In this document: positions 5,256 through 22,152 of the stretch, piece after piece
Layout: each line of letters starts with the position of its first letter
How positions within the stretch are numbered: the first letter of the stretch is position 1
From: Cellulomonas chengniuliangii
GTDB lineage: Bacteria > Actinomycetota > Actinomycetes > Actinomycetales > Cellulomonadaceae
DNA length: 64,000 nucleotides
Direction: 5' to 3'
NCBI RefSeq assembly: GCF_024508335.1
Contig: NZ_CP101988.1
Span: 3,286,001-3,350,000, forward strand
Program-made: the position numbers and the translations under genes
Notes under the pieces: model-generated
Seen by the model: only the letters and a program-made list of their open reading frames with translations
The model's database searches: none
Told to the model about the DNA's origin: nothing

Positions 5256-5705
5256 TCAGCCGGCGCAGCCCTCGCTGGCGACGCGCATCATCCCGCGGAT
5301 GCCCACGAGCAGCCCGGAGACCTCGTCGGGCGTGAGGCGTTCGAGCAACTCCCGGCCGAAGGAGTCGGGCATCACCACGGTGTCGCGGAGCACCTCTTGG
5401 CCGTGCTCGGTGATGGAGAGCAGGCGCACGCGGCGGTCGTCGGCCCCGGCGCGCCGGGCGACGAGGCCGAGCCCCACGAGCCCGTCGACGATGCCCGTGG
5501 TCGTGGCCGGGGTGACGTCGAGCAGTCTGGCGACCTCACCCGCGGGGACGGCGCCTGACACCTGGAGGACGGCGAGGACCCGGACCTGCTGCGCGGTGAG
5601 GTGGGTGCGGGAGGAGATGGCGTGCAGGCGCTGGGCGACGAGCAGGTCCTCGAGCTCGTCGCGGGCGGCGAGCAGCTCGTCGAGGGCGCCGGGCTGCGTC
5701 GTCAT
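5256..5705 (-). CDS. MarR-family transcriptional regulator (second)
   Basis: A 149-residue MarR protein from MTTQPGALDELLAARDEL. The winged helix is clear ([41 protein letters not shown], then AGADDRRVRLLSITEHGQEVL). A longer start at 5741 would add 12 residues and overlap the promoter repeats, so 5705 is preferred. Its stop lies 5 nt from that of the other MarR gene (convergent). It is divergent from the RND exporter, with two GGTTRGGCTAASC repeats in between. It may control that exporter, or both may answer to an iron regulator. Confidence 0.85.
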   Translation of the reverse strand: MTTQPGALDELLAARDELEDLLVAQRLHAISSRTHLTAQQVRVLAVLQVSGAVPAGEVARLLDVTPATTTGIVDGLVGLGLVARRAGADDRRVRLLSITEHGQEVLRDTVVMPDSFGRELLERLTPDEVSGLLVGIRGMMRVASEGCAG

Positions 5706-5723
5706 GCACGGCAGCCTACTACT

Positions 5724-5765
5724 TAGGGTTGGGCTAAGCATTTACTTCGGGTTAGGCTAACCAAC
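5724..5765. promoter_or_regulatory. Iron-box-like (DtxR/IdeR) double site upstream of exporter and MarR
   Basis: GGTTAGGCTAACC at 5750-5762 is a perfect 13-bp core of the DtxR/IdeR iron box. Aligned by eye to TTAGGTTAGGCTAACCTAA, bases 5747-5765 match 15 of 19. A second copy, GGTTGGGCTAAGC at 5727-5739, matches 12 of 19 over 5724-5742; the centres are 23 bp apart. The sites lie in the only promoter region between the MarR and RND genes. They could instead be operators of the MarR protein itself. Confidence 0.6.
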
Positions 5766-5815
5766 CCCGAGCGACGCCCGCCGCCACGGACCCCTGCCCC
5801 TGAGGGAGCCCTCTC

Positions 5816-8800
5816 GTGTACAGACTCGCCCGGCTGTCGCTCGCCCAGCGCGCAGTGACCGCCCTCGTGACCGTCGCGGTCACGCTCCTCGGCCTCGTCA
5901 GCCTCGGGTCGCTCAAGCAGGAGCTCATCCCGTCCGTTTCCTTCCCGACCGCCGCGGTCCTCGCCGTGGCGCCCGGCTCGTCGCCCGACGTCGTCGAGCA
6001 GCAGGTCACCGTGCCACTGGAGAACGCCATCCAAGGCGTGCGCGGCGTCGAGGACGTGACCTCGTCCGCGTCCACGGGCCTGACCGTGTCCACCGTGACG
6101 TTCACCTACGGCACCGACATGGCCTCCGCGACGAGCCAGCTCACCGCGGCCATCTCCCGCGTGCAGCGCCAACTGCCCGCCGACGTCGACCCGCAGGTGA
6201 TCGCCGGATCCATCGACGACCTGCCTGTGGTGCAGCTCGCCGCCGCGGGCAGCGCCGACCCGAAGGCGCTCGCGCAGGCCGTCGACGAGGTCCTCGTGCC
6301 CGAGCTCGAGGAGCTCGACGGCATCCGCGACGTCACCGTCACCGGCTCCGCCGCCCGGCAGATCACGCTCGACGTCGACCCCGCCGCCCTCGCCGCCGCG
6401 GGCCTCACGCCCACCGACGTGTCCTCCGTGCTCCAGCAGAACGGCATCACGCTCCCGGCCGGCACCGTCACCGAGGGGCACACCACCTGGTCGGTGCAGG
6501 CGGGCGCGCCGATCACCAGCGTGGAGCAGCTCGCCGCCCTGCCGCTGACCGGCGCGACCGGAGCCGTGGCGCCGCTCGGCGACGTCGTCGACGTCATCGA
6601 CGGCGAGCAGGCGCAGACGTCGTTCTCGCGCCTCGACGGCGAGCCGTCGCTGGCCGTCGCGATCACCAAGACGCCGGACGGGAACACCGTCGACGTCTCG
6701 CACGAGGTGAACGACGTCCTCGCGTCCGCCCGCGACAGCCTCGCGGCGCGCGGCGTGACCGTGTCCATCGTCTTCGACCAGGCCCCGTTCATCGAGGAGT
6801 CCATCCACGGCCTGGCCACCGAGGGCGGGCTCGGCCTGCTGTTCGCGGTCATCGTGATCCTGGCGTTCCTCGCGTCGGTGCGCTCCACGCTCGTGTCCGC
6901 CGTGTCGATCCCGCTGTCGCTGCTCGTCGCGTTCGCCGTCATGAACGTCACCGGCTACACCCTCAACCTGCTCACGCTGTCCGCGCTCACCATCGCCATC
7001 GGCCGCGTGGTCGACGACGCGATCGTCGTCATCGAGAACATCAAGCGGCACCTGTCCTACGGGGAGCCGAAGCGCGAGGCGATCATCGGCGCCGTCCGCG
7101 AGGTCGGCGGCGCGATCACCGCATCGACCGTCGCGACCGTCGCCGTGTTCGCGCCCATCGGGTTCGTCGGCGGCGTGGTCGGAGAGCTGTTCCGGCCCTT
7201 CGCCATGACCGTCGCGATCGCCATGGGCGCGTCGCTGCTCGTCGCGCTCACCATCGTGCCGGTCCTCGCGTACTGGTTCCTCAAGGAGCCCGCGCACGCC
7301 GACGCCGAGGAGGCGGCACGGGTGCGCGAGGCCGCCGAGGCCAAGGAGCGGACCGGGATCTGGCAGCGCGCGTACGTGCCGACCCTGAACGCCGCCCTGC
7401 GCCGGCCGTGGACCGCGATCGCCGTCGCCGGCGCGGTGCTCGTCGGCACGCTCGCCCTGGTCCCCCGCTTGGAGACGAACCTGCTGGGCGACACCGGGCA
7501 GGACACCGCGACCGTCACGCAGACGTTCGCACCCGGCACCTCGCTGCAGGCCCAGGACGACGCCGCCCGGACCGTCGAGCAGGCGCTCGCCGACGTCCCC
7601 GGCGTCATGACCGTGCTCACCACGGTCGGTAACGACGGGCTCGCCACGCTGTTCGGCGGCGGCTCCGCCCCGAAGGCGTCCTACTCCCTCACGCTCGACG
7701 AGGACGCCGACGCCGGGCGCGTGCAGGACGACGCCCGGGCCGCCATCGCGGACCTCGGCGCCGCGCCGACCACGCAGCTCACCGTCTCCGGCGGCGAGGC
7801 CGCGTTCGGCAGCTCGACCGTTGACCTCGTCATCACCGCCGACGACAACGACGCGCTCGCCGACGTCGCCACCACGGTCACCGACGCGGTGTCCGACGTC
7901 GACGGCGTCGAGAGCGTGACGAACAACCTCGCCGCCGACCAGCAGATCGTCGACGTCACGGTCGACCGCGACAAGGCCGCCGCCGCCGGGCTGTCGGAGA
8001 CGGCGCTCGCGGGCATGGTCACCGCGGTCATGCAGCCGTCCCAGATCGGCCAGCTCGACCTCGGGGACGGGCCCGTCACGGTCCGCATGCAGGTCGGGGA
8101 CGCCCCCGCGACCCTCGACGCGCTCGCCGCGACGCCCGTGCTGACCGCGGGCGGCCCGGTGCCGCTGTCGTCGCTCGCCACCGTCGAGAAGGTGGACGTC
8201 CCGTCCGCCATCACCCGCGTCGACGGCTCGCGCTCCGCCACCGTCTCCGTCACGCCCGCCGGGCAGGACGTCGGCAGCCTGTCGCAGTCGCTGCAGAAGG
8301 TCGTCGACGAGATGGAGCTGCCCGCCGGCGCCCACGTCGAGCTCGGCGGTGTCGCCGCCGACCAGCAGGACGCGTTCGGCGACCTGGGGCTCGCGCTGCT
8401 GCTGGCGATCGCGATCGTCTACATCGTCATGGTCGCGACGTTCAACAGCCTCGCCCAGCCGTTCATCCTGCTCATCTCCGTGCCGTTCGCCGCGACCGGC
8501 GCCCTCGGCGCCCTGCTGGTCACCGGCACGCCGCTCGGCGTCCCGGCGCTCATCGGGATGCTCATGCTCGTCGGTGTCGTCGTGTCCAACGCGATCGTGC
8601 TGATCGACCTCATCAACCAGTACCGGGCCGCCGGACGGCCCCTGCTCGAGGCCGTCACCGAGGGCGCCCGCCAGCGGCTGCGGCCCATCGTCATGACCGC
8701 CGCGGCGACGATCTTCGCGCTGCTGCCCATGGCGTTCGGCGCGACCGGCGGCGGGGCGTTCATCTCCCAGCCGCTCGCGCTCGTCGTCATCGGCGGCCTG

Positions 8801-15977: not shown

Positions 15978-17450
15978 ATGACCGACCACGCCGTGGCGAT
16001 AGCCGGCGGCGGCCCGACGGGACTCATGCTGGCTGCCGAGCTGGCCATCGCCGGGGTCGACGCCGTCGTCGTCGAGCGGTGCGCCACCCAGCAGGTCGAC
16101 GGCTCCCGCGCCGGTGGGCTGCACTCCCGCACCCTCGAGGTGCTCGACCAGCGCGGCGTCGTCGACAGGTTCCTCGCGGCGGGGCAGCCGATGCAGATCC
16201 AGGGCTTCGCCGGGATCCCGCTGGACATCAGCGACTTCCCCACCCGGCACCCCTACGGGCTCGCGCTCTGGCAGGGGCACATCGAGCGGCTCCTCGCGGA
16301 GTGGGTCGCCGAGCTGGGCGTCCCCGTGATCCGGGAGACCGAGGTGACCGGCTTCGCGCAGGACGACGACGGCGTCGACGTGCGCCTCTCCGACGGCCGC
16401 TCGATCCGCGCGCAGTTCCTGGTGGGCTGCGACGGCGGGCGCAGCACGGTGCGGAGGGCCGCGGGCATCGAGTTCCCCGGGTCGGACGCCACGACGAGCT
16501 GGCTGATCGCCGAGGTGGACATGACGGAGCATCCGCAGATCGGGATGCGCCGTGAGGGCGGCGGCATCGGGCCGGTCGATCGCGAGCGGGGCGGCGGGCC
16601 GTACCGGGTGGTGCTCAAGGAGCAGCACATCGGCCAGCCCGGCGAGCCCACGCTGCAGCAGGTCAGCGAGGCGCTCGTCCTCGCCTACGGGACTGACTAC
16701 GGGGTGCGCAGCCCCACCTGGATCTCCCGGTTCACCGACGCGACCCGGCAGGCGGCGTCCTACCGTGCGGGCCGCGTGCTGCTCGCGGGCGACGCCGCCC
16801 ACGTGCACCCGCCGCAGGGCGGCCAAGGGCTCAACACCGGCGTGCAGGACGCGGTGAACCTCGGCTGGAAGCTGGCCCAGGTCGTCGAGAACGCCTCGCC
16901 CGACGCCCTCCTGGACAGCTACCGCGCGGAGCGGCACCCGGTGGCGGCGCAGGTGCTGCGGCACACCATGGCGCAGGTCGCGCTGAGCACCCCGGATGAC
17001 CGCCACGACGCCCTGCGCGGCGTCCTCATCGACCTGCTGGGGCTCGACCAGGCGCGCCGACGCCTGGCCGGGAGCCTCTCCGGCCTGGACATCCACTACG
17101 ACCTCGATGGAACGCACCCGGTGGTCGGGCGGCGCATGCCTGATCTCGACCTCGACGGCCCCGACGGCCCCACCCACGTCTTCGAGCTGCTGCACGACGC
17201 ACGCCCGATCCTGCTCGTCCTCGCAGAGCCCGGTGGGCCCGTACCGCCCCCGTCGGCTGATCGCGTGCGCCTGGTCGAGGCCAGGCGCCAGGGCGGCTGG
17301 GAGCTGCCGGTGCTGGGCGAGGTCACCGCTCCCCCGGCCGTTCTGATCCGGCCTGACGGGCATGTCGCCTGGGCTGGGGACCCCACCGACCCGGCGCTGC
17401 CCCGGACGATCGAGGCCTGGTTCGGCGTCAGTCCCGGGTCTGCACCGTGA
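15978..17450 (+). CDS. FAD-dependent aromatic monooxygenase (PheA/TetX/RdmE-type)
   Basis: A 490-residue class A flavin hydroxylase. The three family motifs are present: GGGPTG near the N terminus (FAD ADP), CDGGRSTVR (DG motif) and AGDAAHVHPPQGGQGLNTGVQDAVNLGWKLA (GD motif). The C-terminal 130 residues form the thioredoxin-like tail usual in this group. The ATG at 15978 follows GGGAG by 5 nt and is preferred over 15966. Members hydroxylate phenols, polyketides, rifamycin or tetracycline. The substrate here is not evident and no biosynthetic cluster surrounds it. Its 3' end overlaps the convergent ECF-fusion gene by 23 nt. Confidence 0.88.
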   Translation: MTDHAVAIAGGGPTGLMLAAELAIAGVDAVVVERCATQQVDGSRAGGLHSRTLEVLDQRGVVDRFLAAGQPMQIQGFAGIPLDISDFPTRHPYGLALWQGHIERLLAEWVAELGVPVIRETEVTGFAQDDDGVDVRLSDGRSIRAQFLVGCDGGRSTVRRAAGIEFPGSDATTSWLIAEVDMTEHPQIGMRREGGGIGPVDRERGGGPYRVVLKEQHIGQPGEPTLQQVSEALVLAYGTDYGVRSPTWISRFTDATRQAASYRAGRVLLAGDAAHVHPPQGGQGLNTGVQDAVNLGWKLAQVVENASPDALLDSYRAERHPVAAQVLRHTMAQVALSTPDDRHDALRGVLIDLLGLDQARRRLAGSLSGLDIHYDLDGTHPVVGRRMPDLDLDGPDGPTHVFELLHDARPILLVLAEPGGPVPPPSADRVRLVEARRQGGWELPVLGEVTAPPAVLIRPDGHVAWAGDPTDPALPRTIEAWFGVSPGSAP

Positions 17451-20400
17451 TGACGCCGAGCAGGTAACGGTCGCCTGTGGCGACCGCGGTCAGGGTGCTG
17501 ACCGGCTGGCGCAGCGGCGCCTCCTGGAAGGGCTTGGCGTCCACGCCCAGCGAGTTGGCGCCGCTCCATCCGACGGCGGTCGAGTCGAACGCGTTCGCGG
17601 ACGAACCGGTCGCGGCGAGCGCCGAGCCCGTCCAGCGCCACGGGGTCAGGGCCGAGCCGTCGAGCAGCAGCGAGTCGCCGCTCGAACTCCGGTCGCCCTC
17701 CCAGCCGACGACGCCGATCTGCGCTCGGGACCCGTCAGCGGCGAAGGCGAACGCTGGCGCGGACTGGCCCAACCCGCTGGCCCAGGCGCCGCCGTCGTAC
17801 ACGGCGACGGCTCCGGCGCCCGGCTCGGCGTAGACCACCACGAGCGCCCACCCGGCGTAGTAGGTCGGGGTCAGGTCGAGCCGGGTCGACGCGACGGCGA
17901 TGTCGGCGACGGACCACACCCCGGGGCCGCCCGCGCGCACCTGCTCGGTCACGTCGGCGAACGACTGGTAGTAGGCCCGGCGCGCGTCGTCCTGGACCTC
18001 GGCGAGCACCTCGCCGGTGAGGGCGCTGTACGCCACCTCCCCCGGCCCGCGCAGGCGGACGGTCGCGCGGTCGCCGGTGAGCTGGTCGAAGCGGGCGTGG
18101 TTCGCCGACCAGTAGAGGCCCGCGAAGGCGATCTCCCGATCGGCGGGGACCTCGAGCCGGGCGCTGGAGGAGACGTGCCGCCCTCCGGCCGCGTTGAGCG
18201 GGACCATGAGGAAGTCGTTGTTGTCGAGTGCCGACCCGGCGCCGGCCACGGCGTTCTGGCACGCGCCGGGCAAGGTCACGCCGGTGCCGGGCACGCCCAG
18301 GCAGCTGAGCAGCGGCGCGCCGACCTGGGTGACCGACCACCCGCCCGCTTGGCTGAACCGTGGCGCGAAGCCGCCCCACCCGGCGGCGGCGGCCGCCCGC
18401 TCCACAACCTCGGCGCCGGTTCCGCCGGTCAGCCGCACTGTGACGTCGTCCGAGCCCGCGGCGACGGCCCGCACGCCCACCGCCACGGATGCCGTCGCGC
18501 CGGGCTCCACCGTCCCGAGGGCGCACCGCACCGTTCCGGCCTCTCCCACCACGCACGACGCCCCGCCGAGATCCGACGTGAGGTTCGCGGCCAGGTGGCG
18601 CGGGAGGACGAACTCGGCGACCGCCCCCTGCGCGGGGTGGTTCCCGGAGTTGGCCACCGTGGCCTCCACCCGACCGCCGCCGCCATCGAGCAGACGCGCC
18701 ACCGGGGCCGAGGCGAAGGCCAGCCGCGACGCCCGGGCCACGACGCCGATGTCCACCTGTCCGGCGCGTGCCCCCGCCGCCGACGCCGTCACGTGGAAGG
18801 CGCCGATCGGGCCAGGGACGACGCCCGTCGCCGCCCGCACGTGCAGCATCAGCGGCGCCACCGCCCCGGCGTCGAGGTCGCGAACGCACAGCACCGCACC
18901 CGAGGGCTCCGACTCGCACGACCAGCCCGGCCCGGACGCGCCGGGCGACGCCGCCCACTCGACACCGGTCGGCGGCGCGACCCGCACCGCCGCGCCCCGC
19001 ACGGGGACGTCCCCGCCGTTGGCGACGGTCACCCGCACCTGCTGCCGCTGCCCCTCCACGAGGTCGACCGACGAGGCCGCCGCCACGTCCAACCGCGCCT
19101 GGCGGTGCACCAGCACCGGCGCCTGCAGCCGCAGGGGCGCGAGCCCGTCACCGGTGACCTGGATCGAGACGACTGCCTCAGCGCCGCCCAGCGCCGAGTC
19201 GTCCACCACCACCTGCAGCGTGAGGATCGCCGTGGAACCCGGCTCCAACCGGTCGAGCGCGCACGTCGCGACGCCGCCGCCGGCGGTCCCGGCGCAGACC
19301 CACCCGCTCGCGCCGCCCACGGCGAGACGGGCACCCACCGCGGACGGGGAGGCCAGCGCCATGCGGAGCGGTGACGCGACGATCCGCGTCGTGGTGGACG
19401 CGAGGACCGCACCCGGCGGGAGGGTGATCTCGGCCCGGAGGCCGGTGGCGGTCGCCCCACCCGAGTTCTCGATGTTGATGCTGAGGCCCTGCTCGGCGCC
19501 GTCCGCGACCAGCACCACGGGACCCGAGGCCGGGACGGTGATCTGGGCTGGCGTCGGGCTGACCGGCGGCTCGGTCGGCTGACCGGGCGCCGGCGACGGG
19601 CCCGGCGCAGGGGATGGCGCCGGCGACGCTCCAGAATCCGGCTCCGCGGCAGGCGGCGCGGCGGCGGATCCCGGCTCCGCGGCGGGTCCCGCGTCGCCCT
19701 CGGGCTCGGCTGCGCCTCCGACGGCAACCGTAGTCACCGGAGGGCGCCTCGAATCCGTGCTCACGCCCGGGTCCACGGACTCGGGGCCCGCGTCGGCAGC
19801 GGGCACGTCCGGGGAGGCGAACGGGCTCGGCAGGTCGGTGGGCGAGACGGGCCGGGCAGTGGTCGTGTCGCTCGTCGTGGGCGCAGGAGCGGACGTGACC
19901 ACCGCGTCCGAGGCGGAGGCGTCCGGATCTTGCGAGAAGACGCCGAGCGCCCCGGCGGTGGCCACGGCAGCAACGACCACGATCGACGCCGCGGCCAGCC
20001 CGATGACGGCCAGCGGCAAGGAGGCCAGCGCGGCGCCGATCCCGGCGACCCCGCCCACTGCGGCGGCGCCCCCCGCCGCCGCGCCCGCTGCTACTCCACC
20101 CGCTGCCGCACCGCTCGCGCTCGCACCTCCAACGGCCCCCGCACCGGTCGCCGAAGTGCCGGTCGCCGCAGTGCCGGTCGCCGCAGTGCCGGTCGCGGCG
20201 GTGCCAGACGCCGTGGTGCCAGACGCCGTGGTGCCAGCTGCGGCCGCCGTGCCGGCCGCCGTGGTTGCCGTCGCGGTGGTCCCGGCCGCGATGGCTGCCC
20301 CACCCCCGCCGCCCAACGCCGCGACGCCAGCGGCGAGGCCACCGCTGACCGGCAACGGGTGCGCGAGGACGCCGAGCCCGACGGCGCCGAGCACCAGCGG

Positions 20401-21153
20401 CGCGATGACCGCCCGCATCCCGTGGTTGACGTCGCCAAGCTCGAGCAGCAACGCACGGCAGTCGCCGCATCCTTCGAGATGGCCGTCGACCTGCGTGGTG
20501 TCCCGGGCGGCGAGGCCGCCGCGGACGTATGCCCCGAGCTTGCCGGCCACCTCACGGCACCCGGAAGCCAACGGCTCTTGCAGGTGCTGCTGGAGGTAGG
20601 CCTGCCGCAACCCCTCGCGGGCCCGGTAGGCGAGCGCGGCGACCCCGTTCGCGGACAGGCCGAGCAGCGGACCGATCTTCGCCGGGCTGAGCGACTCGAC
20701 CTCGGTGTACCAGAGCACGGCCTGCCAGCGCTCGGGCAGCGTGCTGTAGGCCTGGGCGACGACTCCGCGCTCGAAGTCGGCCATGGCAGGGGCCTCGGTG
20801 GACTCCTCGGCGCCGAGGACAGACTCGAGGACGCGGACGTCGTCGGTGGCCTCGGTGCGACGGCCCGCCTGGACGCGTTGCATGCCGAGGCGCCGTGCGG
20901 CGGTGAACACGTACGCGCGGAAGGCCACGTCAGGACCGCCACCCTCTTTGAGGATCGCGAAGACCTTGGCGAACGTCTCGGCGACGACATCCTCCGCGTC
21001 GGCGGCGGAGTTCGTGTACTGGCGGGCCACGGCCCAGGTGGCCCCGGCGTGCCGCTCGTAGAGCTGGCCGAACGCCTCGGCGTCTCCGGCGCGGGCAGCG
21101 GTGATGAGCTCGGCATCACCGAGGGGTGAATCCTCGGGTCGCGTCCCACCCAT
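17428..21153 (-). CDS. ECF sigma factor fused to zinc-finger, membrane and surface DUF11-type domains
   Basis: A 1241-residue protein. Residues 10-100 are sigma region 2 (DAEDVVAETFAKVFAIL) and 130-190 region 4 (LPERWQAVLWYTEVESLSP, then an HTH). H225-x3-C229-x2-C232 follows, the zinc-binding anti-sigma motif. Residues 249-264 are weakly hydrophobic, 285-370 an Ala/Gly/Thr linker with 15-bp DNA repeats, and 380-407 a strong membrane helix. Beyond it come a Pro/Ala stalk (410-540), about three DUF11/CARDB-like beta repeats, and a final domain (FAGLYWSANHA, YYQSFADVTEQV, YYAGWALVVVYAEP) known from bacterial surface proteins. The ATG at 21153 follows GAGGAGG. It could pass an outside signal straight to transcription. 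It is divergent from a GGDEF-like gene. Confidence 0.88.
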   Translation of the reverse strand: MGGTRPEDSPLGDAELITAARAGDAEAFGQLYERHAGATWAVARQYTNSAADAEDVVAETFAKVFAILKEGGGPDVAFRAYVFTAARRLGMQRVQAGRRTEATDDVRVLESVLGAEESTEAPAMADFERGVVAQAYSTLPERWQAVLWYTEVESLSPAKIGPLLGLSANGVAALAYRAREGLRQAYLQQHLQEPLASGCREVAGKLGAYVRGGLAARDTTQVDGHLEGCGDCRALLLELGDVNHGMRAVIAPLVLGAVGLGVLAHPLPVSGGLAAGVAALGGGGGAAIAAGTTATATTAAGTAAAAGTTASGTTASGTAATGTAATGTAATGTSATGAGAVGGASASGAAAGGVAAGAAAGGAAAVGGVAGIGAALASLPLAVIGLAAASIVVVAAVATAGALGVFSQDPDASASDAVVTSAPAPTTSDTTTARPVSPTDLPSPFASPDVPAADAGPESVDPGVSTDSRRPPVTTVAVGGAAEPEGDAGPAAEPGSAAAPPAAEPDSGASPAPSPAPGPSPAPGQPTEPPVSPTPAQITVPASGPVVLVADGAEQGLSINIENSGGATATGLRAEITLPPGAVLASTTTRIVASPLRMALASPSAVGARLAVGGASGWVCAGTAGGGVATCALDRLEPGSTAILTLQVVVDDSALGGAEAVVSIQVTGDGLAPLRLQAPVLVHRQARLDVAAASSVDLVEGQRQQVRVTVANGGDVPVRGAAVRVAPPTGVEWAASPGASGPGWSCESEPSGAVLCVRDLDAGAVAPLMLHVRAATGVVPGPIGAFHVTASAAGARAGQVDIGVVARASRLAFASAPVARLLDGGGGRVEATVANSGNHPAQGAVAEFVLPRHLAANLTSDLGGASCVVGEAGTVRCALGTVEPGATASVAVGVRAVAAGSDDVTVRLTGGTGAEVVERAAAAAGWGGFAPRFSQAGGWSVTQVGAPLLSCLGVPGTGVTLPGACQNAVAGAGSALDNNDFLMVPLNAAGGRHVSSSARLEVPADREIAFAGLYWSANHARFDQLTGDRATVRLRGPGEVAYSALTGEVLAEVQDDARRAYYQSFADVTEQVRAGGPGVWSVADIAVASTRLDLTPTYYAGWALVVVYAEPGAGAVAVYDGGAWASGLGQSAPAFAFAADGSRAQIGVVGWEGDRSSSGDSLLLDGSALTPWRWTGSALAATGSSANAFDSTAVGWSGANSLGVDAKPFQEAPLRQPVSTLTAVATGDRYLLGVITVQTRD
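20142..20235 (-). repeat. 15-bp tandem repeats in the ECF-fusion linker
   Basis: About six near-identical 15-bp units, GTGCCGGTCGCCGCA-like on the plus strand and drifting to GTGCCAGACGCCGTG, encode repeating Ala-Thr-Gly-Thr-Ala pentapeptides. The period is a multiple of 3, so copy-number change would lengthen or shorten the linker without a frameshift. Confidence 0.85.
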
Positions 21154-21339
21154 TGCCCGCCGAACCTCCTCGATCACCCGGGCGGAGGACCGCCGTGGGC
21201 ATCGTCGCCCTGCCTGCACCGTCGGCGGTGCGCCATGTGGGGCTCAGCCTTGCACAGTTGGACGTATCGGTGCGAAAACGACTGAAAATTGGCGCCGGGT
21301 TCCGCGTCATGATTCGGGGAGAGCGCCGTCTCACCAGGC
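21154..21339. promoter_or_regulatory. Divergent promoter region between ECF fusion and GGDEF-like gene
   Basis: A 186-bp region serves both genes. The part at 21236-21320 is noticeably less GC-rich (ttgcacagttggacgtatcg area), as expected for promoters. I could not fix a -35/-10 pair for either direction, and an ECF-type self-promoter is plausible but not identified. Confidence 0.4.
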
Positions 21340-22152
21340 ATGACGCCCAACGAGCCGCGCGGCGCCCCTGCCGCGGGCGCGCCCCTGAGGGAGCGCTGGC
21401 GCGAGCGGAGCGTCGCCTCGACCTGGCGGCGGGCGTCCGACTGGCGCCATCCGGCCGTGGACGGACTCGTCGCGGCGGTGCTCGCGGGCGAGGACGGCGA
21501 GGCTGCGGCCGTGCGCCTCGGCGCCGCCCGATGCGCGGCCGGGGTGGGCATCGCGGAGGCCATCGACGATCTGGCCGCGTTCTACCAGTGCGTCGACGGT
21601 GGTCCGCCACCGACGCCGATGCTGCGGGCACTATGCGAGGGCTGGACGGACGAGCAGACCTCCGGCATCGCCTTGGGGTCGTGCCTCGACCCGTCCTCAG
21701 GCCTGCCGACACGCGACTACCTGGCCACCCGGCTCGTCGAGACGTACGCCGTGAGCCGCCGCGCCGGGGTCTCCCCGACGCAGTCCCACCGCCTGCTGGT
21801 GCTGGACGCGGCGACACCCTCGGCCACCCCGTGGTCACGGCTCGCCCGATCAGCCACGGTCGGGGCCGCCCTGCGCGACCAGTTCGGCGACGTCCACCCC
21901 ATGGCGAGCCTGGGCGGCGACGTGTTCGTGGTGCTCGTGGACGAGATGGAGCTGGACGAGCAGCCGTCTGACGATCCCGACGGCCCGACTGCCCTCGACC
22001 GGGTGGTCACCCGCACCCTCGCCCATGTCGCGCGGCACGCGTTACAGCTCGACGTCCCCCAGCTCGTGCGCCATCCGCCGCGCGTGCGCCTCGTAGGATT
22101 GCCAGCTGTGTATGAGGACGCCGAGCGGCTGCTGGTCGACCTCACGCGCTGA
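21340..22152 (+). CDS. Protein with a degenerate GGDEF domain
   Basis: A 270-residue protein. Residues 115-130 read LDPSSGLPTRDYLATRL, matching the D-x-LTGL-x-NR-x-L opening of GGDEF domains. LLVLDAATPS stands where the metal-binding strand should be, and MASLGGDVFVVLVDE (about 188-202) fits the signature loop with GGDVF in place of GGDEF. The lost glutamate is catalytic in diguanylate cyclases, so this is probably not an active enzyme. Residues 1-100 are a helical domain I do not recognise. It is divergent from the ECF fusion, suggesting a signalling partner, but a link to c-di-GMP is inference. Confidence 0.65.
   Translation: MTPNEPRGAPAAGAPLRERWRERSVASTWRRASDWRHPAVDGLVAAVLAGEDGEAAAVRLGAARCAAGVGIAEAIDDLAAFYQCVDGGPPPTPMLRALCEGWTDEQTSGIALGSCLDPSSGLPTRDYLATRLVETYAVSRRAGVSPTQSHRLLVLDAATPSATPWSRLARSATVGAALRDQFGDVHPMASLGGDVFVVLVDEMELDEQPSDDPDGPTALDRVVTRTLAHVARHALQLDVPQLVRHPPRVRLVGLPAVYEDAERLLVDLTR

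Follow-up and report, generated by a model that had tools for sequence, protein, structure and literature searches.

Extracytoplasmic function (ECF) sigma factors with a built-in anti-sigma factor and a surface domain have been proposed from genome surveys (PMC8999054). In groups ECF48, ECF52 and ECF53, the sigma factor is fused to a zinc anti-sigma (ZAS) segment and to membrane segments with extensions of up to 400 residues, and SCO4117 of Streptomyces coelicolor, from ECF52, is called the best understood among them (PMC8999054). Its single chain runs from a sigma domain and a PF13490 zinc finger through a membrane segment and a Pro-rich extension to an outer domain, and the ECF52 C-terminus is a carbohydrate-binding domain (smart00776) (PMC5826349). 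A sigma-only truncation of SCO4117 raises expression of its own gene, and cleavage has been proposed (PMC5826349). Proteolytic activation is also proposed for ECF48 and ECF53, which have a ZAS fusion and one or two membrane helices, and proteolytic release has been shown for IutY of Pseudomonas putida (ECF243), a sigma factor and membrane-bound anti-sigma factor in one chain that is cut by Prc and RseP (PMC8999054). Here we describe a gene of this kind in 64,000 nucleotides of Cellulomonas chengniuliangii (contig NZ_CP101988.1, positions 3,286,001 to 3,350,000; hereafter the window). The sequence supports a complete ECF sigma domain fused to a ZAS segment, then a membrane anchor and, outside the cell, a stalk that ends in a beta-rich tip.

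The window protein shares with ECF52 the sigma domain, zinc finger, membrane segment and Pro-rich extension. It differs in that DUF11-like repeats and a DUF3344-like tip, about 830 residues together, stand in place of the carbohydrate-binding NPCBM domain. No NPCBM match was found at E up to 1 with the whole protein or up to 10 with two C-terminal pieces; NPCBM_assoc reached 0.013 on the C-terminal pieces, below its cut-off. Two SCO4117-like relatives of about 580 residues, L112 and L113, match PF08305 NPCBM at 4.1e-30 and 2.2e-31, and their heads are 41-43% identical to that of the window protein. In a quick head tree (81 of 114 rows, midpoint root, with a long-branch warning for L112 with L090), the window head falls into a branch of 40 rows (Shimodaira-Hasegawa-like approximate likelihood ratio test 99) from Cellulomonadaceae, Demequinaceae, Promicromonosporaceae and their kin. 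This branch does not include L112 and L113, the two rows by which the SCO4117 side is represented. Because the window protein has no NPCBM domain and branches apart from the SCO4117-like rows, we do not file it as ECF52; by analogy, it may work like ECF52 without belonging there.

Compared by description only, ECF48 and ECF53 differ from the window protein in their extensions of up to 400 residues (PMC8999054). The initial annotation had called the surface part unusually large, which holds against these groups and ECF52 but not against its own relatives, which have a median of 987.5 residues and a maximum of 2149 when counted from the sigma start (n = 86 closed frames). A Cellulomonas member is listed under ECF122, with its mechanism given as unknown (PMC8999054). 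Mycobacterium tuberculosis SigL (6dv9) lies near the window sigma domain, and RslA (3hug) is the best solved anti-sigma relative. However, SigL and RslA are two separate proteins that are not known to have a large outer domain, whereas IutY belongs to Gram-negative iron cell-surface signaling, has another class of anti-sigma factor and is not known to have an adhesin-like outer part. The outer part shares its domain types with fibrillar adhesins, in a survey of which DUF11 is a stalk domain and DUF3344 is listed under "ambiguous function" (PMC9210967), so the earlier description of this part as adhesin-like was fair. The main text of that survey, by contrast, contains 0 occurrences of "sigma". 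No description of an ECF sigma factor with DUF11 or DUF3344 outer domains was found in the literature searched, which is no proof of absence.

The fused gene and its sigma and zinc head

The gene is a single open frame of 1241 codons with zero internal stops, begins with an ATG, and lies in a genome assembled as one contig (3.57 Mb, 99.99% complete). The same fusion recurs in relatives. A scan of genome contigs with six window-protein peptides as bait confirmed 124 relatives, of which the best 80 were kept; 17 of their frames were cut by a contig end, and 53 of the remaining 63 closed frames are 700 residues or longer. In a class-wide survey (head residues 1-250 as query, 296 genomes, threshold 1e-30), the head was found in 99 genomes, and 106 of its 119 places sit within open frames of 420 residues or more, measured from stop to stop. 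That an assembly or sequencing error joined two genes is therefore hardly credible, and we rejected a join or frameshift artefact for the window gene on the strength of this recurrence and the single near-complete contig. In favor of such an error, single relatives carry in-frame stops (L003, L004) or frame breaks (L054, L122). A few members are short, with 249 (L091) and 319 residues (L056). In L003, from the public Cellulomonas timonensis assembly, an insert at L003:7300-7370, past the membrane helix, interrupts the gene; we take this insert to resemble a common sequencing-adapter contaminant. Sigma and surface parts in separate genes are thus not the rule among homologs, and the one-chain arrangement of sigma factor, zinc finger, membrane anchor and surface part given in the initial annotation is borne out by the frame and by its relatives.

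In the Streptomyces clavuligerus homolog, a stop splits the gene in the Pro-rich region, perhaps through a sequence error (PMC5826349). This break and that of L122 lie in or near the Pro-rich segment that joins the sigma and surface parts, and sequencing error, phase variation and frameshifting are all candidate causes.

The head contains sigma regions 2 and 4, as initially annotated, without a region 3 domain, which is the composition of an ECF sigma factor. The NCBIfam sigma70-ECF model (TIGR02937) matches residues 26-185 at 1.3e-18, above its cut-off, and Pfam Sigma70_r2 residues 31-96 at 3.1e-9, while Sigma70_r4_2 (residues 133-180, 0.0017) remains below its own. By sequence, the closest solved sigma factors are CnrH (6.6e-9) and then SigL (9.4e-9), and SigL is also the top Foldseek match of an AlphaFold2 model of the head. 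The zf-HC2 family (PF13490) matches residues 199-233 at 6.7e-9, and the previously reported H-x3-C-x2-C motif lies exactly at residues 225-232 (HLEGCGDC). The zinc ligands C199, H225, C229 and C232 are unchanged in 44 of 44 aligned heads, and the pattern C-x20-32-H-x3-C-x2-C is kept in 112 of 114 rows (exceptions L118 and L120). Searched against solved chains, a profile of this segment found 3hug_B (RslA) at 1.3e-4, followed by ChrR at 0.01, and a predicted helix at residues 230-255 adjoins the zinc segment in the head model. A zinc motif and a short helical domain beside an ECF sigma factor characterize a class I anti-sigma factor of the ZAS type, and the window protein has both.

Ratios of nonsynonymous to synonymous substitution (dN/dS, omega) against L002 are 0.15 for sigma (residues 12-190), 0.14 for ZAS and 0.10 for the membrane helix, with 0.65 for the Pro-rich stretch, 0.48 for the stalk and 0.35 for the tip. 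Against L007, they are 0.25, 0.31, 0.51, 0.51, 1.0 and 0.58 in the same order. Judging by these ratios and alignments, the sigma and zinc segments are conserved and under purifying selection. Three other head matches in the host genome, 26-32% identical and one of them holding an internal stop, are taken as ordinary ECF-type genes.

Topology, outer part and exchange among genomes

The top hydrophobic 21-mer is residues 379-399 (Kyte-Doolittle 2.4). The strong membrane helix of the initial annotation (380-407) therefore stands, with different limits. Weaker hydrophobic stretches occur at 364-384 (1.98, adjoining the main helix) and at 249-269 (1.94); the latter was absent from the initial annotation and overlaps the predicted helix 230-255. 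We favor one spanning helix with the N-terminus inside and the C-terminus outside, as predicted from several features. In L103, L111 and L123, residues bearing Lys or Arg lie between the counterpart of 249-269 and the membrane helix, which fits a cytosolic placement of that stretch. Of 84 closed rows, 80 have an even count of cysteines past the membrane helix, although the rows are related and so do not amount to 84 independent tests; the window protein has four pairs. An even count supports export, as expected for disulfides. Net charge is higher on the N-side of the helix in 91 of 97 rows (5 ties, 1 contrary), a bias that arises because the outside flank is acidic. The linker before the helix differs in length between relatives, and its Ala/Gly/Thr part is encoded in part by 15-bp and 45-bp tandem repeats at 20144-20290. 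Draft contigs of many relatives stop within this tandem-repeat segment.

Past the Pro-rich stretch, DUF11 matches residues 832-909 at 2.2e-4 in the whole protein, just below the curated cut-off, and at 1.6e-8, above it, when the C-terminal 690 residues are searched alone. The DUF11/CARDB-like repeats initially annotated are thus DUF11-like: searched at E up to 1, the window protein has no CARDB match, and CARDB was found in relatives only. Among 20 relatives' outer parts scanned at E up to 0.01, 14 contain DUF11 and 7 CARDB. AlphaFold2 predicts a confident beta fold for the terminal domain (predicted local distance difference test 91.4, predicted template-modeling score (pTM) 0.93), and Cys 951 and Cys 965 of this tip are invariant across 27 aligned relatives. 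No Pfam family matches the window domain, and even at E up to 0.1 DUF3344 (PF11824) does not; among the 27 aligned tip members, 6 match DUF3344 weakly at this threshold (best 3.8e-6). The gathering score is not reached by the window tip, and the L005 and L007 outer parts also remain below it. No sortase motif was found in the fused proteins by a simple pattern, and the host genome contains no tip paralog at E 0.001 except the window domain itself.

Features of the fused gene (window positions; domain assignments are predictions)
Feature	Residues	Position	Strand	Basis or remark
Whole gene, fused ECF sigma / ZAS / membrane anchor / surface protein	1-1241	17428..21153	-	1241 aa plus stop
GAGGAGG, ribosome-binding-like stretch		21165..21171	-	12-18 nt 5' of ATG 21153; read from sequence
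ECF sigma domain, regions 2 and 4	13-190	20584..21117	-	Pfam, NCBIfam, solved-chain likeness, omega
ZAS-type zinc anti-sigma segment	199-255	20389..20559	-	zf-HC2, invariant ligands, 3hug_B match
Ala/Gly/Thr/Ser-rich linker	270-378	20020..20346	-	without any K, R, D or E
Membrane helix	379-399	19957..20019	-	hydropathy only
Pro-rich stretch	408-555	19489..19932	-	33 Pro within residues 408-560
DUF11-like stalk repeats	556-922	18388..19488	-	Pfam; Cys pairs 620/631, 746/756, 867/877
Terminal surface domain	923-1241 (319 aa)	17431..18387	-	distantly DUF3344-like; AlphaFold2

The head is present in 136 of 150 genomes of the window's family and in 25 of 25 genera, joined to varied outer parts. Clustering placed 33 outer parts, that of the window protein included, in one set linked through stalk or tip, 17 in a second type and two in a pair, and left 13 singles. 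Tails were labeled in 88 rows: a DUF3344-like tip in 30, the second type in 17, NPCBM in 2 and Ig plus ricin-B lectin in 2, with other tails in the remaining 37. The NPCBM and lectin labels come from Pfam scans of 10 outer parts, 5 of which gave any match, and of L123; these scans showed related heads joined to tails of NPCBM, of Ig plus ricin-B lectin, of Big_6 and of fn3. On a quick tree of 82 heads, without a shuffled control, presence of the DUF3344-like tip switches at least 8 times. By these comparisons and the substitution ratios, the outer part evolves faster than the head and is exchanged. The tip also occurs outside sigma fusions. It was found at 47 places in 46 of the 296 class genomes; the head is in the same frame at 18 of them, while 8 belong to frames of 1597-8199 residues and the other 21 to frames of 373-1081 residues. 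Among these 21, the places in G037, G121 and G060 are cut upstream by a contig end and that in G232 lies just past a broken head frame; these four may be fusions as well. A tblastn search of plasmid records matched 111 of 72,556, none across more than 80% of the window protein.

Possible activation and competing explanations

We consider, with a probability of roughly 60%, that the protein is a one-protein transmembrane signaling system. By folding back onto its own sigma domain, the ZAS segment would deny it access to RNA polymerase, much as an anti-sigma factor encoded by a separate gene does. When the stalk or tip meets a cue at the surface, such as a polymer, a partner cell or the state of the wall, the protein would be cleaved outside and cut within the membrane by a site-2 protease. 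Cytosolic proteolysis would free the sigma factor for transcription of target genes, possibly cell-surface genes. The head would be a constant output module, and the outer module would be swapped between lineages to fit different cues. Restraint, cleavage, ligand and regulon are what we infer here; restraint in cis with release by cleavage appears to be the simplest reading of the head. That the tether implies proteolytic release was already suggested in the initial annotation, a sound idea that has been published for ECF52, ECF53 and ECF48 (PMC8999054, PMC5826349).

Several observations weigh against such a system. The AlphaFold2 head model has a pTM of 0.38, at which the domain arrangement is not reliable, so docking of ZAS between sigma regions 2 and 4, the placing that marks this anti-sigma type, is not supported by the model. 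Over its whole length, it superimposes poorly on solved sigma factors, with a TM-score to the query of 0.25-0.29 in the top ten rows. If the weaker stretch 249-269 also spanned the membrane, as it might, the topology would be reversed. Lys and Arg alone show no inside bias around the membrane helix (97 rows: 23 N-side, 28 C-side, 46 ties), and the best helix is weakly hydrophobic in some relatives (lowest 1.38, tenth percentile 1.71). The site-2 protease family PF02163 is present in the host genome (6.8e-43), where the gene lies at genome position 2225674-2226828, and also in 14 of 14 control genomes; being near-universal, it adds little support for proteolytic release. Several of the 14 family genomes without the head are near-complete (G299: one contig, 99%). 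The search for ECF-type promoters proposed in the initial annotation found no conserved site: 4 of 82 upstream regions contain one, where 200 mononucleotide shuffles gave 2.3 on average (maximum 6). An autoregulated ECF promoter was thus not supported, and because sites occur near the shuffled level, GGAAC-N18-CGTT, which begins 150 nt upstream of the window gene, is not counted as evidence.

The invariance of the zinc ligands across 44 heads would also be expected if the CxxC segment sensed cytosolic thiol or metal stress while the outer part merely anchored the protein to the wall or to neighboring cells. RslA and ChrR are the best solved relatives of the zinc segment, and zinc anti-sigma factors of this sort are known to respond to redox conditions. 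However, a purely passive anchor would not require outer domains that fold, are retained and are swapped, and the outer part of SCO4117-like relatives contains an NPCBM domain; we regard a redox or zinc switch as unlikely. Instead, the protein might serve chiefly as an adhesin or wall protein at the surface, with its sigma domain released constitutively or at assembly to report successful export rather than a ligand. The DUF11-type stalk, the fast evolution of the outer part, the giant frames that hold the tip at 8 of its 47 places and the surface-protein genes adjoining some relatives are in line with this. Yet conservation is higher in the head than in the surface part, the restraint segment is retained, and the simple pattern for sortase motifs found none in the fused proteins, which makes a mere report of export a poor prospect. 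Finally, the sigma factor could work from the membrane or be a permanently inactive relic, since the domains of the AlphaFold2 head take up no fixed arrangement and release is a proposal. Purifying selection on sigma and ZAS and retention in 136 of 150 family genomes speak against a relic, as does the raised expression caused by truncated SCO4117 (PMC5826349), and we hold this to be improbable.

A more specific and less likely reading is that, in cellulomonads and their kin, adhesion itself provides the input. A stalk-and-tip adhesin, its outer part several hundred to about 1700 residues long, would sense directly for the sigma factor: contact, pulling or polymer binding outside would be turned into transcription through one molecule, with tips swapped between lineages like cartridges. 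If true, the window's family would have a near-core switch in which one molecule converts contact into transcription.

Gene neighborhood and meaning of the family

Surface-protein genes are neighbors in some relatives only. Of 124 locus records scanned, 7 have open frames with LPxTG/LAxTG-like sorting tails close to the fused sigma gene, some of these frames overlapping (L050, L053, L060, L063, L071, L120 and L090). In L090, an LAxTG protein resembling M11 peptidases starts 91 bp downstream of the fused sigma gene. It is possible that such sorting-tail surface genes are targets of the sigma factor. L091 is a conjugative Paenarthrobacter plasmid. Upstream of its fused sigma gene, on the opposite strand, lies a gene for a SpaA-like pilin; downstream comes another sigma plus zinc-finger gene, which is short and has no membrane part. 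These neighbors lie at 1-1225 and 5329-5949.

An hspR-like (MerR-type) gene lies 1.0-5.5 kb upstream in 57 loci among L005-L077, with dnaJ and dnaK further out; representatives matched MerR, DnaJ and Hsp70 in Pfam. The hspR-like setting was not found within 8 kb in the window, L002 or L003, and for this reason we kept it out of the mechanism. In the window, a divergent open frame at 21340-22152 (+) encodes 270 residues without a Pfam match and has a faint, unconfirmed GGDEF look by eye.

The principle of such proteins is already published for ECF48, ECF52 and ECF53 and for SCO4117, and the window protein extends this little-studied kind of one-protein surface sensor. What is new, in that we found it not described in the literature searched, is that a branch near-universal among cellulomonads carries a large, exchangeable, adhesin-like ectodomain built of stalk and tip. 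Since the family is widespread and combines a constant head with exchangeable ectodomains, head swaps, release assays and ligand screens are straightforward. The fused sigma family may reveal how cellulomonads detect surfaces or polymers.

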